Of a DNA stretch of 57,396 bases, positions 5,230 through 57,396 are shown one piece after another; within the stretch, counting starts at the first letter, position 1; the number at the start of each line of letters is the position of its first letter. Below the pieces are notes generated by a model. It was given only the letters and a program-made list of their open reading frames with translations. It had not been told where the DNA came from and made no database searches. The position numbers and the translations under genes were made by a program. Source of the stretch: Burkholderiales bacterium (GTDB lineage: Bacteria > Pseudomonadota > Gammaproteobacteria > Burkholderiales > SG8-41); contig JALHRQ010000018.1 of the NCBI GenBank assembly GCA_022841375.1, forward strand, positions 1 to 57,396. The letters run 5' to 3'.

Positions 5230-5979
5230 GTGCGCATTCTGCTCAGCAACGACGACGGTTATTTTGCACCGGGCCTGGCCGCCCTGGAGCGCGCGTTGTC
5301 GCCACTGGGCAAGGTCACCGTCGTCGCCCCCGAGCGCGATCGCAGCGGCGCGAGCAATTCACTGACTCTGGACCGGCCGCTGTCGGTGAGACAGGCGCCA
5401 AGCGGTTTCTACTATGTCAATGGCACGCCCACGGACTGCGTGCATCTGGCGGTGACCGGTTTGCTGCCGGAACTGCCGGATGTCGTTGTTTCAGGCATCA
5501 ATGACGGGGCGAACATGGGGGATGACACGATTTATTCCGGCACCGTTGCCGCCGCAACCGAAGGTTTCCTGCTGGGCATCCCGTCAATCGCCGTATCTCT
5601 GGTATCCGGCAAGAACGATTATTTCAATACCGCAGCCCGAGTCGCGGCCGAGCTGGTGCTGCGTTTCGGCCAGCACCGCATTGACCAGCCCGTGTTGTTG
5701 AATGTGAATGTGCCTGATGTGCCGTACGAAGAGTTGCGCGGCTTCAAGGTGACCCGCCTGGGCAAGCGCCACAAGGCCGAGCCTGTGGTCAAAGCGAGCA
5801 ATCCTCGCGGTGACACGGTGTATTGGGTCGGCGCAGCAGGACGTGCGCAGGACGCCGGTGAAGGTACTGATTTCCATGCCACGGCAGCGCAGATGGTTTC
5901 GGTGACGCCGCTGCAGATGGATCTGACGCGGTTCGGACAGATGGAACTGGTCGGCAACTGGCTGGATAGGCCGGCATGA
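5230..5979 (+). CDS. surE: 5'/3'-nucleotidase SurE
   Basis: 249 residues. The N-terminal [10 protein letters not shown] carries the two metal-binding aspartates (8 and 9), followed by [16 protein letters not shown] and [14 protein letters not shown], the other metal-site segments. It dephosphorylates nucleoside monophosphates in the cytosol. It begins with GTG, with only weak Shine-Dalgarno complementarity. The stop overlaps the start of pcm (ATGA at 5976-5979), the widely conserved surE-pcm arrangement. Confidence 0.95.
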
Positions 5980-53865: not shown

Positions 53866-53942
53866 GGTGGCTGTAGCTCAGCTGGTAGAGTCCCGGATTG
53901 TGATTCCGGTTGTCGCGGGTTCGAGTCCCGTCAGCCACCCCA
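53866..53942 (+). tRNA. tRNA-His (anticodon GTG)
   Basis: Acceptor GTGGCTG with CAGCCAC, the extra 5' G (53866) opposite C73 typical of tRNA-His, anticodon stem CCGGA/TCCGG around TTGTGAT, CCA at 53940-53942. The element with the integrase starts directly after it, so its 3' end is the probable integration site. Confidence 0.96.
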
Positions 53943-54021: not shown

Positions 54022-54234
54022 TCATCTCAGTATTCCGCATTCAGCTTGGGCATTTTGAATGATAAGGTCAATCTGTGACGGCTCCGCGGTCATTTCCTTT
54101 GGATGCTCCACTGGTTGCGCGTCGTTGGCGCCCCACTTGTATGCTTCATTCGCGATGGTGTTGATAAACAATTGCAGCTTCATCGCCTGTGCCGCGTCCA
54201 GTGAGAATTCTCGCTGCAGGTCTGACAGTTTCAT
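54022..54234 (-). CDS. Hypothetical small protein after the integrase
   Basis: 70 residues (MKLSDLQREFSLDAAQAMKL...), mostly helical, not recognised. Its ATG overlaps the integrase stop (ATGA at 54231-54234), so it is translationally coupled and probably real. The position between the integrase and the attachment site could suit an accessory factor, but no function can be assigned. Confidence 0.55.
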   Translation of the reverse strand: MKLSDLQREFSLDAAQAMKLQLFINTIANEAYKWGANDAQPVEHPKEMTAEPSQIDLIIQNAQAECGILR

Positions 54235-55274
54235 CGTAATGGCCTTACTTTAGTAGGTCCGCGCCGGTAACTTCTGCGCGTGGTCCTCGTGCTTTCGTGG
54301 CCGAGCAGATCCTGTGCGCGCTGATCACTTTCGACATCGCTGCCAGACTTCGCGCGGATGTCGTGCTCCCAGAATCTCTTATGGCCAGCTGCAGCGTGTG
54401 CAGCCATCGCGCGCTGCCATGCGCTCTTGAATCCTTTTGGGCTGAGCCCTGATCCGAAGCGGCCTGGGAACAGTGGGCGCGGCGCGATGGGCTCGACGTT
54501 CTCCGGCAATGGCTCGCGGAGCGATTGCGCAGCGGTGATGACGGTGCGCAGGGCCCATGACCAGCGGATGATGCGGTGCTGTCCGGTCTTGCTGATCTGC
54601 ACCTTGATGCCGCGATCGGTCAGGTGCGCGTCGTTGATGCGGAGCATGTCACCCTGGCGCAGCGCGGTCAGGCGTTTCAGTAACACGTAGCAGCGCATCC
54701 ATGGTGTGCAGTATCCGGCGCTGGTGAAGGTGCGGACCTCACTGGTCTCGACGTAGCGATCGCGCGGTGTCTCCGTGTTCCGGCGCACGCCGTAGCAGGG
54801 GTTGGTCTTGATGTCGAAGCGATCCTCGCCCATACCCCACGAGTAGGCCGACGACATGAAGGCCAGCTCGCGATTGGCGCGGATCGGCGCCGGCATGCCG
54901 TTCTTGTCGGTGCGTTTGCGCAGATAGGTGGCGCAGTGTTTCGAGGTGACGGCGTTGTAGTGCATGCGGCCGAAGGCCAGTTTCAGCACACGGCGCTCGA
55001 TGTTGTTGTCCTCCAGCGTGCGCTTGGCGCGTTTGCCGGCGCGCACCAGGCCCTCGCAGTGCTCGTAGAACGCATCGAGCAGCTCCGCGACGGTGCCATC
55101 CGCCGCCTTGCCTGTGGTGAGCCTCACCCAGGTGTCCCGGGCTTCCTTGTCCCATTCCCGCCCCAGCTTGTGCCATTTCCCGTTCTTGTCGACGTAGAAG
55201 TGCCAGCCTTTGCTCTGGTACACGCGCTCGGGCAGGTGGTGTAAGGTGGTGCGGATGCGTCCCATGGGCGGCAT
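54231..55274 (-). CDS. Tyrosine recombinase / phage-type integrase
   Basis: 347 residues. The catalytic set is complete: Arg206 in TALRQGD, Lys229 in ISKTGQ, His304 and Arg307 in HDIR, His326 in LLGHES and Tyr336 in RRSYRR. The N-terminal part (HLPERVYQSKGWHFYVDKNGKWHKLG) is the DNA arm-binding type seen in phage integrases found with DUF4224 genes. It points toward the tRNA-His 3' end, the expected layout for an element integrated there. The upstream DUF4224 gene ends 3 bases before its ATG. An ATG three codons in (55265) is an alternative start. Confidence 0.9.
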   Translation of the reverse strand: MPPMGRIRTTLHHLPERVYQSKGWHFYVDKNGKWHKLGREWDKEARDTWVRLTTGKAADGTVAELLDAFYEHCEGLVRAGKRAKRTLEDNNIERRVLKLAFGRMHYNAVTSKHCATYLRKRTDKNGMPAPIRANRELAFMSSAYSWGMGEDRFDIKTNPCYGVRRNTETPRDRYVETSEVRTFTSAGYCTPWMRCYVLLKRLTALRQGDMLRINDAHLTDRGIKVQISKTGQHRIIRWSWALRTVITAAQSLREPLPENVEPIAPRPLFPGRFGSGLSPKGFKSAWQRAMAAHAAAGHKRFWEHDIRAKSGSDVESDQRAQDLLGHESTRTTRRSYRRGPTKVRPLR

Positions 55275-55277
55275 AGT

Positions 55278-55508
55278 CTACGCCCTCATTCCAAAAACCG
55301 TGAAATCGGGCTCCGTGGCCAGGCCGTGCGTCGGCTGCGGCGCTTCCGGTACCACACCGAAGCGGCGCTCGATGTAGGCGCTGGCCACCAGCACCTCGCC
55401 CAGTCCGTTGACCTCGTGCGGGATCTTCCGCTCAATGAGGTTGCGGATCTGCGCCGGCCGGTTTTTTTTGCCGGTCAGGCGACGGACTTCGGCGGTGGTC
55501 AGCCACAT
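55278..55508 (-). CDS. DUF4224 small DNA-binding-like protein (possible excisionase)
   Basis: 76 residues. MWLTTAEVRRLTGKKNRPAQIRNLIERKIPHEVNGLGEVLVASAYIE has the helix-turn-helix look of DUF4224, which is regularly encoded directly before phage integrases and is thought to act as excisionase or regulator. Its ATG overlaps the stop of the reverse transcriptase (TGATG at 55506-55510), physically coupling the retroelement and integrase modules. Confidence 0.75.
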   Translation of the reverse strand: MWLTTAEVRRLTGKKNRPAQIRNLIERKIPHEVNGLGEVLVASAYIERRFGVVPEAPQPTHGLATEPDFTVFGMRA

Positions 55509-56920
55509 CAGTGGCTTCCCCTGTAGGTCTTCGTCAATCGCGCATCAATGCACCGGCCACGCTTGCGCAGGATGTTGGCGATGCGCACGCGGTCGTGCTG
55601 GCTGTGGGTGGTCTGCCGGCACAGTCCGAAGTAGCTGTTGGCGGTGGCGAACAGGTCGGCGTCGTCGATGGTTTGCAGCCGGCGCAGGGCTTCGTCATAG
55701 GTGCGGCGGCGGAGCGTGGTGCGCCAGGGCTTGATGACCTGCCCGGCGAAGTCGATGCCGCGGTCGACGGGCTGCAGGATCGTCTTCGCGGGGTTGTGCT
55801 GGAGGTGCAGCCGTTCGGGCAGGAAGGCCTCGATCGCGCGGCGCCAGGCGGTGAGCTGCTGCGGTGATTCGTGGAGCAGCACGAAGTCATCGACATAGCG
55901 GATGTAGTGCTTGACGCGGAGGCGGTGTTTGATGAACTGATCCAGCGCGTCGAGGTGGACGTTGGCGAAGAACTGGCTGCTCAGGTTGCCGATCGGCAGG
56001 CCTTTGCCGGCCGGCGCTTCGGACAGGCGCTTGTGGAGCGGTACGCGGGCCATCAGCGCGGGCGTGCTCTGGTGCACGGCGCCGGGGCGCGGATCGTGCC
56101 ACAGGACCTGCAGCGCCAGATCCTGCAGCAGCGGGTCGCGGATGCGGGCGCGGAGCTGTTCGGCGAGGATGGCTTTATCGATGCTGACGAAGAAGTTGGC
56201 CAGGTCCATCTTGAGGTAGAACGCCGGCCGCGACCAGTTGTGGGTGACGTTGCGGACCTTGTGTTCGAGCCGACGCACCGCGTACAGGGTGCCGCGCCCC
56301 TTGATGCAGGCGCAGCTGTCGGCGATGAACGTGCGCTCGATGGCGGGCCCGATCGCGGCGTAGAGCAGGTGGTGAACAATCCGATCGCGGAACTCGGCTG
56401 CCCACACCTCGCGCGGCCGCGGCCGGGTGATGACGAAGCAGGTCGACGGGCCCGGCCGGTAGGTGCCGGCGGCGAGGTCGGTGTGGAGCGTGTAGAGATT
56501 CTGCTCCTGGTTGACCTCGAATGCGGTGGCCGATCGTTTTCTGCGTTTGGTTTGGCGGCAGGCGAGATAGGCTTCCACCCACTGCGCGAAAGAAAAGCCA
56601 GCGCGGCGGCCGGCGACGGTCTGATCTGCGGACGAGCACGACCTCGAACTCGTTGTCCTTGTGGTTGTTGTTCTGGTTGCCGTTTCTGAAGTTCTGACAC
56701 CAGGCATAAGCCTCGTTGCCGGCGTTCTGGGGCCTGTCGCACTATCTACGTCGCCACCGCGAAGGCCGGATGTTGCGCCGATCAGGGTGGTGACTGCGCC
56801 GGACGCACCGAACAGATCGAACTGCCCGGAGGTATCCGTTGCGCGCGTGACGGTGGCCGGTTTGGCCAGCGGTGCGACCAGATTAGAAAAGCGCTCGGAC
56901 ATGGCTGTCTTGACAGTCAT
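55508..56920 (-). CDS. DGR reverse transcriptase
   Basis: 470 residues if started at ATG 56920, which overlaps the avd stop (ATGA). The catalytic core (last ~360 residues) shows FRDRIVHHLLY, FYLKMDLANFFVSIDK with the first catalytic Asp, YVDDFVLLH with the other two, and LPIGNLSSQFFANVHLDALD. The SQ ending in place of the usual SP of group II intron enzymes is typical of retroelements that diversify genes. No endonuclease or maturase domain. The first ~140 residues of the open frame do not resemble the family and contain the template repeat in another reading. Starts compatible with the FSFAQWV beginning of the core are ATG 56707 (inside the template), 56902 or 56920; GTG 56578 would cut it. 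Confidence 0.92.
   Translation of the reverse strand: MTVKTAMSERFSNLVAPLAKPATVTRATDTSGQFDLFGASGAVTTLIGATSGLRGGDVDSATGPRTPATRLMPGVRTSETATRTTTTRTTSSRSCSSADQTVAGRRAGFSFAQWVEAYLACRQTKRRKRSATAFEVNQEQNLYTLHTDLAAGTYRPGPSTCFVITRPRPREVWAAEFRDRIVHHLLYAAIGPAIERTFIADSCACIKGRGTLYAVRRLEHKVRNVTHNWSRPAFYLKMDLANFFVSIDKAILAEQLRARIRDPLLQDLALQVLWHDPRPGAVHQSTPALMARVPLHKRLSEAPAGKGLPIGNLSSQFFANVHLDALDQFIKHRLRVKHYIRYVDDFVLLHESPQQLTAWRRAIEAFLPERLHLQHNPAKTILQPVDRGIDFAGQVIKPWRTTLRRRTYDEALRRLQTIDDADLFATANSYFGLCRQTTHSQHDRVRIANILRKRGRCIDARLTKTYRGSH
56625..56730 (-). repeat. DGR template repeat (TR)
   Basis: On the minus strand the segment is rich in AAC codons and, in the frame of the variable repeat, reads NAGNEAYAWCQNF, then RNGNQNNNHKDNEF, then EVVLVRR. 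Bases 56625-56678 align without gaps to 57343-57396 with seven differences, each a template adenine (sense strand). The distal limit is not fixed because the variable copy runs off the window; the sense frame is open back to a TAG near 56741. The core 31 bp at the 3' end are identical in both copies and probably contain the initiation site for mutagenic homing. Confidence 0.93.
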
Positions 56921-57291
56921 ATAAGCTGGCGCTGTGATCCGTCGCCAGCATGGTGCTTCCGCCAGCCGTTCGCCTGACGCCCCACGGATTGCGTGTGGGT
57001 GATCAGACGTGCATAGGCCGGGGTCTTGATGAACCGCTTGTCCCGGCACATGCGCACGACTGTCTCGACCGTGGCGAGCTTCTCCAACAGCTTCAGCAGA
57101 TGGGGCTCGCGGGATTCAGCCGGCGCCATATTGGCCGCGCGGATGTCGAGCTCCATTGCCAGGCAGTTGTCGAGGATCGTCCGGCCGAGCACCGGTTTGA
57201 CATCCCTCCGCATCTGCAAAACGACGTCAACGGCTTCGCCGGCGAGATCGAAGATGGCGCGGTAGATATCGGTTTCGGTGTGAAGTGCCAC
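56917..57291 (-). CDS. avd: DGR accessory variability determinant (Avd)
   Basis: 124 residues from GTG 57291, preceded by AAAGG. Small, all-helical, with basic surface residues (LLKLLEKLATVETVVRMCRDKRF), the size and pattern of Avd four-helix-bundle proteins, which form pentamers that bind the reverse transcriptase and template RNA. It lies between the target gene (36 bases upstream) and the reverse transcriptase, whose frame starts at its stop. Four-helix (23S rRNA intervening-sequence-type) proteins look similar; the context decides for Avd. Confidence 0.85.
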   Translation of the reverse strand: MALHTETDIYRAIFDLAGEAVDVVLQMRRDVKPVLGRTILDNCLAMELDIRAANMAPAESREPHLLKLLEKLATVETVVRMCRDKRFIKTPAYARLITHTQSVGRQANGWRKHHAGDGSQRQLI

Positions 57292-57327
57292 GCTGGTAAA
57301 ACCTTTAAAAATTATTGAATGATCGAA

Positions 57328-57396
57328 TTACCGAATCAGCACTCTGCGGACGAGCACGACCTCGAACTCGTTGCCCTTGGGGCCGTAGTTCTGGAG
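57328..57396 (-). CDS. 3' end of the DGR target gene (partial)
   Basis: Only the last 22 codons are inside the window; they end ...NEFEVVLVRRVLIR and stop at 57328-57330. Comparison with the template shows N-to-L, N-to-Y, N-to-G, H-to-P and D-to-G changes in the diversified positions, while NEFEVVLVRR is constant. By analogy with known DGR targets the C-terminal domain would be a C-type-lectin-like binding fold, but the rest of the gene must be read to name it. Confidence 0.85.
   Translation of the reverse strand, partial: LQNYGPKGNEFEVVLVRRVLIR
57343..57396 (-). repeat. DGR variable repeat (VR), truncated by window edge
   Basis: 47 of 54 bases identical to the template at 56625-56678. Differences opposite template positions 56656, 56662, 56665, 56666, 56669, 56677 and 56678: three A-to-G, two A-to-C, two A-to-T on the sense strand; none of the 35 non-adenine positions differs. 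Confidence 0.93.

Follow-up and report, generated by a model that had tools for sequence, protein, structure and literature searches.

Contig JALHRQ010000018.1 (hereafter C18) of the Burkholderiales bacterium assembly GCA_022841375.1 carries near one end a diversity-generating retroelement (DGR), comprising a reverse transcriptase (RT), avd, a template repeat (TR) and target genes that end in variable repeats (VRs). The window analysed here is the whole stretch of 57,396 nucleotides from position 1 of this contig, which measures 59,972 bases and continues for 2.6 kb past the window end. An earlier note, made from the letters of the window, had proposed a complete cassette of target end, avd, TR and RT in an integrated element, and all four pieces were recovered, all on the minus strand; RVT_1 gave a single match in the whole genome. 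The features in the window are as follows.

53897..53942, plus strand: attL core at the tRNA-His 3' end, 46 bp identical to C5:13059-13104 (attR)
54231..55274, minus strand: tyrosine integrase of the prophage (Pfam Phage_integrase, E 1.9e-9; phrog_1, E 6.7e-35)
55278..55508, minus strand: excisionase (DUF4224; phrog_4764 'excisionase', E 2.2e-11; Pfam DUF4224)
55508..56578, minus strand: DGR RT, from the first conserved residue to the stop, start codon unsure
56625..56725, minus strand: TR
56730..56934, minus strand: RT-15 RNA (Rfam RF03018), a structured leader directly 5' of TR, 141.2 bits
56917..57291, minus strand: avd, its 3' end overlapping the start of the RT-15 match
57328..57396, minus strand: last part of target 2, read in the VR frame (stop at 57328-57330)
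57343..57396, minus strand: 3' half of VR2 (target 2), the left half being C18:57407-57472

Read along the minus strand, the order is PRTRC A, PRTRC ThiF, target 1, target 2, avd, RT-15 RNA, TR, RT, xis, int and attL. Target 1 and the start of target 2 lie beyond the window; upstream of target 1 come the genes for PRTRC ThiF and PRTRC A, and then the contig end. The earlier note had contained neither the two target genes nor the RNA domain between avd and TR, the identities of excisionase and integrase, or the att sites. The window itself ends at a 10-N scaffold gap (C18:57397-57406) inside VR2, and not at the contig end. The target gene had been described as cut by the window: an open reading frame is indeed interrupted there, but a scaffold gap lies at that point, and there are two targets, not one. 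Once the contig was followed past 57396, an upstream frame continuing into the variable repeat was present for both of them.

The RT frame stops at 55508 and is conserved from 56578 down; LPIGNLSSQ and YVDD, previously read from the letters, were confirmed on the minus-strand frame. The protein matched phrog_1423 with 372 bits. Its LPIGNLSSQ fits the pattern [IL]GxxxSQ of BPP-1 and of five further RTs taken as DGR controls (TR and VR were checked for one of the five only, the tail RT of viral contig IMGVR_UViG_3300032024_000106, hereafter L108), and three group II RTs have QGxxxSP, a difference that we take to separate DGR RTs from group II RTs. In a tree of 19 rows, of which two were long-branched and two unusual in letter composition, the RT was placed in a phage clade (support 100/99) on the side of BPP-1 Brt, and the three group II intron RTs were split from the DGR side by a 100/100 branch. 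The enzyme was hence not found among group II introns, one of the placements that the earlier note had named as speaking against a DGR. The NCBIfam group II model stayed well below its cut-off (88 bits vs 300); for retrons, of which the tree contained none, the NCBIfam retron_St85 model gave 43 bits vs cut-off 235. The Avd-sized helical protein matched PHROG 3206 'Avd protein of DGR' (E 1.9e-21), in support of its identification as Avd, and its matches to Pfam bAvd and NCBIfam DivGenRetAVD fall below the curated cut-offs. Membership of the locus in the DGRs is secure.

Related RT loci were taken as the best 80 of 190 confirmed in genomes and the best 80 of at least 538 confirmed in viral contigs. 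Repeats were searched in 170 loci consisting of five named phages, these genome and viral loci and six PRTRC loci, after one locus with too little upstream sequence had been dropped. Two VR-like repeats were found in 127 loci, three in 26, four in 2, one in 11 and none in 4. In a count neutral to base over the same 170 loci, 4340 of 10467 TR adenines were changed, whereas all other bases combined were changed in 293 of 24526 cases. An avd match was present in 157 of 160 scanned loci. The RT is thus a member of a large clade of phage enzymes whose loci as a rule carry two VRs.

Within the window, the right flank of VR2 has 7 mismatches to TR in 54 sites, and each falls on a TR adenine, a base that accounts for 19 of the 54 (chance 2.8e-4). 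The left flank, past the gap, has 4 mismatches in 66 sites, again all at adenines (chance 0.012). Taken together, 11 of 11 mismatches stand at TR adenines, which bears out the template and variable repeat pair reported beforehand. For 19 nt of TR the two flanks cover the same stretch, and there they disagree at 8 sites, every one a TR adenine; read most simply, they represent two alleles of one VR2, between which the assembler placed the N run. As a side observation, assembly breaks inside VRs may serve as a cheap indicator of live DGRs (the gap is at 5398-5407 of the locus region, L010).

VR1 (C18:57900-57982, 83 sites), inside target 1, shows 16 mismatches to the present TR, 10 at adenines and 6 elsewhere, and 8 adenine and 3 other mismatches to the TR of L108. 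Since VR1 is closer to the latter, the TR that last rewrote target 1 probably resembled that of L108 more than the present one, and probably only target 2 tracks the present TR. The six non-adenine sites at which VR1 no longer fits TR might be taken to indicate that the DGR is dead and that its VR differences date from the past. We consider this improbable, given that VR2 equals TR at all non-adenine sites on both flanks, that the flanks differ from one another only at adenines, and that RT, Avd and RNA appear intact.

The stretch between the avd end and a point 4 nt short of TR (56730-56934) is spanned by a match to Rfam RT-15 that exceeds the gathering threshold (141.2 bits vs 82) and covers the full model, 1-192 of 192. 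The match is also present in L108, in five of five named phages, in six of six PRTRC-DGR loci and in 19 of 20 short clade loci, the only miss being L158; two plasmid RT pieces (L266 and L267), for each of which just 300 bases upstream were covered, gave none. Its 3' end lies at the TR 5' edge in about ten loci compared. An alignment was made of 56 dereplicated loci, chosen by script from 171 via two motifs; 47 loci without the leader motif and 9 without the TR-end motif were left out, several of which do match Rfam RT-15. Among 40 pairs, standard pairs filled 96.1% of cells vs 85.8 in shuffled alignments, and 27 pairs showed double changes vs 12.7 in shuffled and 8-13 in slid copies, a score somewhat favoured by the structure having been predicted from the same alignment. 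A control stretch of 186 nt, starting 25 nt before the TR 3' end, gave -0.84 kcal/mol and no double change; as it consists largely of RT coding sequence, its value as a control is limited. The RT frame is open at least 200 nt upstream in 124 of 169 loci, as it might be if the interval between avd and TR encoded an N-terminal extension of RT instead of an RNA domain. That is scarcely credible in view of the strong base-pair covariation, of length differences among the aligned loci that are not divisible by three, and of the 45 of 169 loci in which the frame is not open that far.

On the other side of TR there is little space: the distance from the TR end to the first conserved RT residue is 29-60 nt in 162 of 171 loci, the end motif being missing in 9. 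Rfam Phage_DGR (RF03022) had no match up to E 0.1 in L010, and was matched in BPP-1 and in the tail DGR of L108. In BPP-1, the spacer 3' of TR is responsible both for recruiting bRT-Avd and for priming the cDNA, whose synthesis is terminated by a motif at the end of avd (PMC12875486). We infer that RT-15 would take over recruiting and priming and/or stopping from the opposite side of TR. No paper naming the RT-15 RNA was found in a literature search that excluded bioRxiv preprints, Weinberg et al. 2017 and Wu et al. 2018 being outside its reach. It should be added that in L158 (3100-3510) RT stands directly behind a VR-like gene end, with neither an RT-15 nor an avd match, which looks like a deletion through recombination between VR and TR.

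Target 1 (C18:57884-58483, 199 amino acids counting ATG) carries VR1 at its 3' end and yielded a confident C-type-lectin-fold model, the fold for which the earlier note had suggested modelling. Target 2 starts at C18:57848, and the gap interrupts its VR2; its product would be about 160 amino acids if VR2 equals TR in length, and its structure model is weak (pLDDT 67). Pfam gave a weak Lcl_C match in each target. A frame of 170 amino acids was considered as the end of target 2 and rejected, as it crosses the N run in another frame. The N-terminus of target 2 is lysine-rich, with 15 K/R and no D/E among the first 40 residues (L010 5730-5849, minus strand). Among 27 rows compared, with start codons chosen by script, a similar start was seen only in L189, also a PRTRC phage (12 K/R, 0 D/E); L106, a PRTRC phage as well, is without it.

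The carrier could be defined from its two ends. The 46-bp core at attL and its identical copy at attR lie on two contigs, C18 and C5, and the integrase is 52% identical to that of L108. C5:1-13104 encodes a large tail protein (tail-fibre and central-fibre-J families), a likely tail fibre, a further tail protein and an Rz-like spanin, and IMP dehydrogenase begins past attR, at C5:14883. On the chromosomal side of attL, the window holds the host genes for NusA, IF-2, polynucleotide phosphorylase and DksA. The att repeats, the integrase and excisionase, and the tail and lysis genes together mark the element as the prophage of a tailed temperate phage, integrated in tRNA-His and distributed over more than one contig, which makes the proposed 'integrated element' more precise. 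Capsid genes were not located in the two prophage ends examined (C18 and C5), and no wider capsid or terminase search was made.

PRTRC ThiF (294 bits) and protein A (207 bits) both exceed the NCBIfam curated cut-offs. The contig ends in protein A, and E, C, F and B were not seen on it, no search for them having been made in the rest of the genome; the sole PRTRC ParB match (C2) is far under the cut-off. Protein A retains HxH...SxxD, which we take to be a JAMM-like motif. The complete set occurs in L190, the opposite end of the L108 record, where E, C (prokaryotic ubiquitin), F, B (E2 family D), A and ThiF follow one another and one unassigned frame separates ThiF from target 1. Operons of this ubiquitin-like type have been described as group 6d (Iyer, Burroughs, Aravind 2006; PMC1779556), and PRTRC is taken to be that group.

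At the thresholds used, relatives of PRTRC ThiF were found in 1 of 50,697 phage records and in 336 of 72,556 plasmid records. Their being common on plasmids would suit a PRTRC-type integrative and conjugative element or plasmid-derived island that acquired a DGR and is not a phage. We regard such an origin as very unlikely: the tRNA-His att cores pair the DGR end with a contig end bearing tail J-like, tail fibre and Rz-spanin genes, excisionase, integrase and RT match phages, and ThiF relatives occur in 65 viral contigs as well (L189-L253), 64 of them with protein A.

A functional pairing of PRTRC and DGR was assessed by co-occurrence and appeared weak, the modules mostly occurring apart. ThiF was present in the flank of one RT locus (L106) among the best 80 of 190 genome loci, and was not found in the fetched flanks of the best 80 of at least 538 viral loci; 72 genome and 58 viral RT loci had at least 6 kb upstream. 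In L108, ThiF stands at the opposite end of the contig record. Conversely, RT was near ThiF in 6 of 65 viral ThiF loci, or 7 counting L190/L108; only 16 of the 65 have at least 6 kb after ThiF, so some pairings may be missed. One of the RT-bearing loci, L195, has an RT of only 32% identity, and L215 looks like the phage of L106, with the same TR/VR counts and RT-15 score. The pairing is uncommon and a joint function is a guess; a literature search without bioRxiv preprints found no paper joining PRTRC with DGRs.

The position, size and fold of the targets suggest that they serve something other than tail tropism. Under a BPP-1-type tropism switch they would be displayed on the virion, at the tail tip or as decoration, and would alter host range. 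This is rather unlikely, as both are small (199 and about 160 amino acids) and on the integrase side, with nothing beyond the weak Lcl_C match in Pfam, as the tail genes found stand at the opposite prophage end, and as the nearest relative, L108, has a separate BPP-1-type DGR at a tail gene.

We therefore favour, with considerable confidence, an accessory DGR of a temperate tailed prophage in tRNA-His, in which RT-15-guided rewriting would diversify the binding face of small lectin-fold proteins with a role other than tropism. In this scheme, a transcript of avd, RT-15, TR and RT would be the template RNA; the RT-15 fold 5' of TR would bind RT-Avd, and would place the TR 3' end for the start of cDNA and/or stop cDNA at the TR 5' edge. 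Adenine-mutated cDNA would then replace the VR of target 2. Target 1 would owe its VR to earlier rewriting from a slightly different TR and would no longer follow the present one. The small lectin-fold products would most likely be made by the lysogen or early in infection and bind variable ligands, our best guess being competing phages or host factors, rather than act in a tail-fibre tropism switch.

Several points weigh against this interpretation. It is built from sequence and models, and the suggested function of the targets from their position, size and fold. The middle of the prophage was not recovered, and capsid genes are accordingly not in evidence. The two VR2 alleles are deduced from one assembly gap rather than from reads, and a real partial VR duplication would be the alternative. 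VR1 departs from the present TR at 6 non-adenine sites of 83, so that no more than one of the targets is clearly live, and L158 shows that decay occurs in the clade.

A bolder version, to which we give little credence, would make the prophage a system of adaptive recognition: cytosolic lectin-fold libraries made by the DGR would act as interchangeable substrate receptors of the adjacent PRTRC ubiquitin-like cassette, by which the lysogen could mark or disable proteins of competing phages, and the template RNA would represent a second architecture of DGR guide, its RT-Avd-binding fold being 5' and not 3' of TR. DGR-based immunity and cytosolic sensors coupled to degradation have been proposed (PMC10053308), although the data there give no hint of mechanism, and antigen sensors in multicellular bacteria have been proposed for DGR targets (PMC10907252). 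The PRTRC neighbourhood suggests, without proof, a link to ubiquitin-like conjugation and fits these immune-sensor proposals.

For the accessory DGR favoured above, the implications are threefold. A clade with little room for a 3' spacer but a conserved 5' fold would make priming and stopping steps testable by comparison with BPP-1; the DGR context gives a setting for Rfam RT-15; and the two-target layout on the integrase side, together with the separate tail DGR in L108, points to hypermutation in temperate phages beyond tropism switching. The pair of targets, the lectin fold and the notion of an immune role are not new here. Viral DGR targets are mostly tail proteins in clades 1, 4 and 6, with clade 3 mixed (PMC8144416); phage DGRs with two lectin-domain targets (PMC10743442) and VRs in DUF1566 genes of Bacteroides phages (PMC8143477) have been reported.

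Among named phages, Burkholderia phage Magia, Pseudomonas phages LPPA56, Haboob and SC_8_H2H8_2017 and Shewanella phage vB_Sb_QDWS have RTs 62-63% identical to the present one (the range over named Burkholderia, Pseudomonas and Shewanella phages being 60-64%) and, as in the clade, two or three VRs and the RT-15 RNA. In the Magia record, the depositors had already annotated 'lectin fold' and 'potential DGR target'. Unlike here, no PRTRC ThiF relative was found in the fetched regions of these five phages (L020-L024).

The viral contig represented by L108 and L190 has an RT of 79% and an integrase of 52% identity, and carries excisionase, avd, RT-15, target 1 and the PRTRC cassette in one order as here, if the contig ends meet. 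It differs in an additional DGR of the BPP-1 lineage at a tail gene (L108 8038-11518), with its own RT, Avd, repeat pair and Phage_DGR RNA. The tail RT is sister to BPP-1 Brt (100/100), and, on the evidence of this tree, one phage contig carries two DGRs of different lineages. A gene at L190 2634-3233 is weakly like target 2 (38% over about 100 amino acids) and matches phrog_4245 like the targets (E 7e-6); located about 8 kb before target 1 of the same phage, it is possibly a third target.

With the DGR of Bordetella phage BPP-1 (brt, TR, avd, mtd), the present locus shares an RT of the DGR kind, Avd, TR and VR, a lectin-fold target and attachment at tRNA-His (53867-53942 in the window; 1-27 in BPP-1). 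In BPP-1, the annotated VR belongs to mtd, a tail protein gene with further tail genes next to it, whereas here two small targets adjoin the integrase side of the prophage; and the Phage_DGR RNA of BPP-1 lies 3' of TR, in the 144-nt interval between TR and brt, whereas RT-15 is placed 5' of TR.
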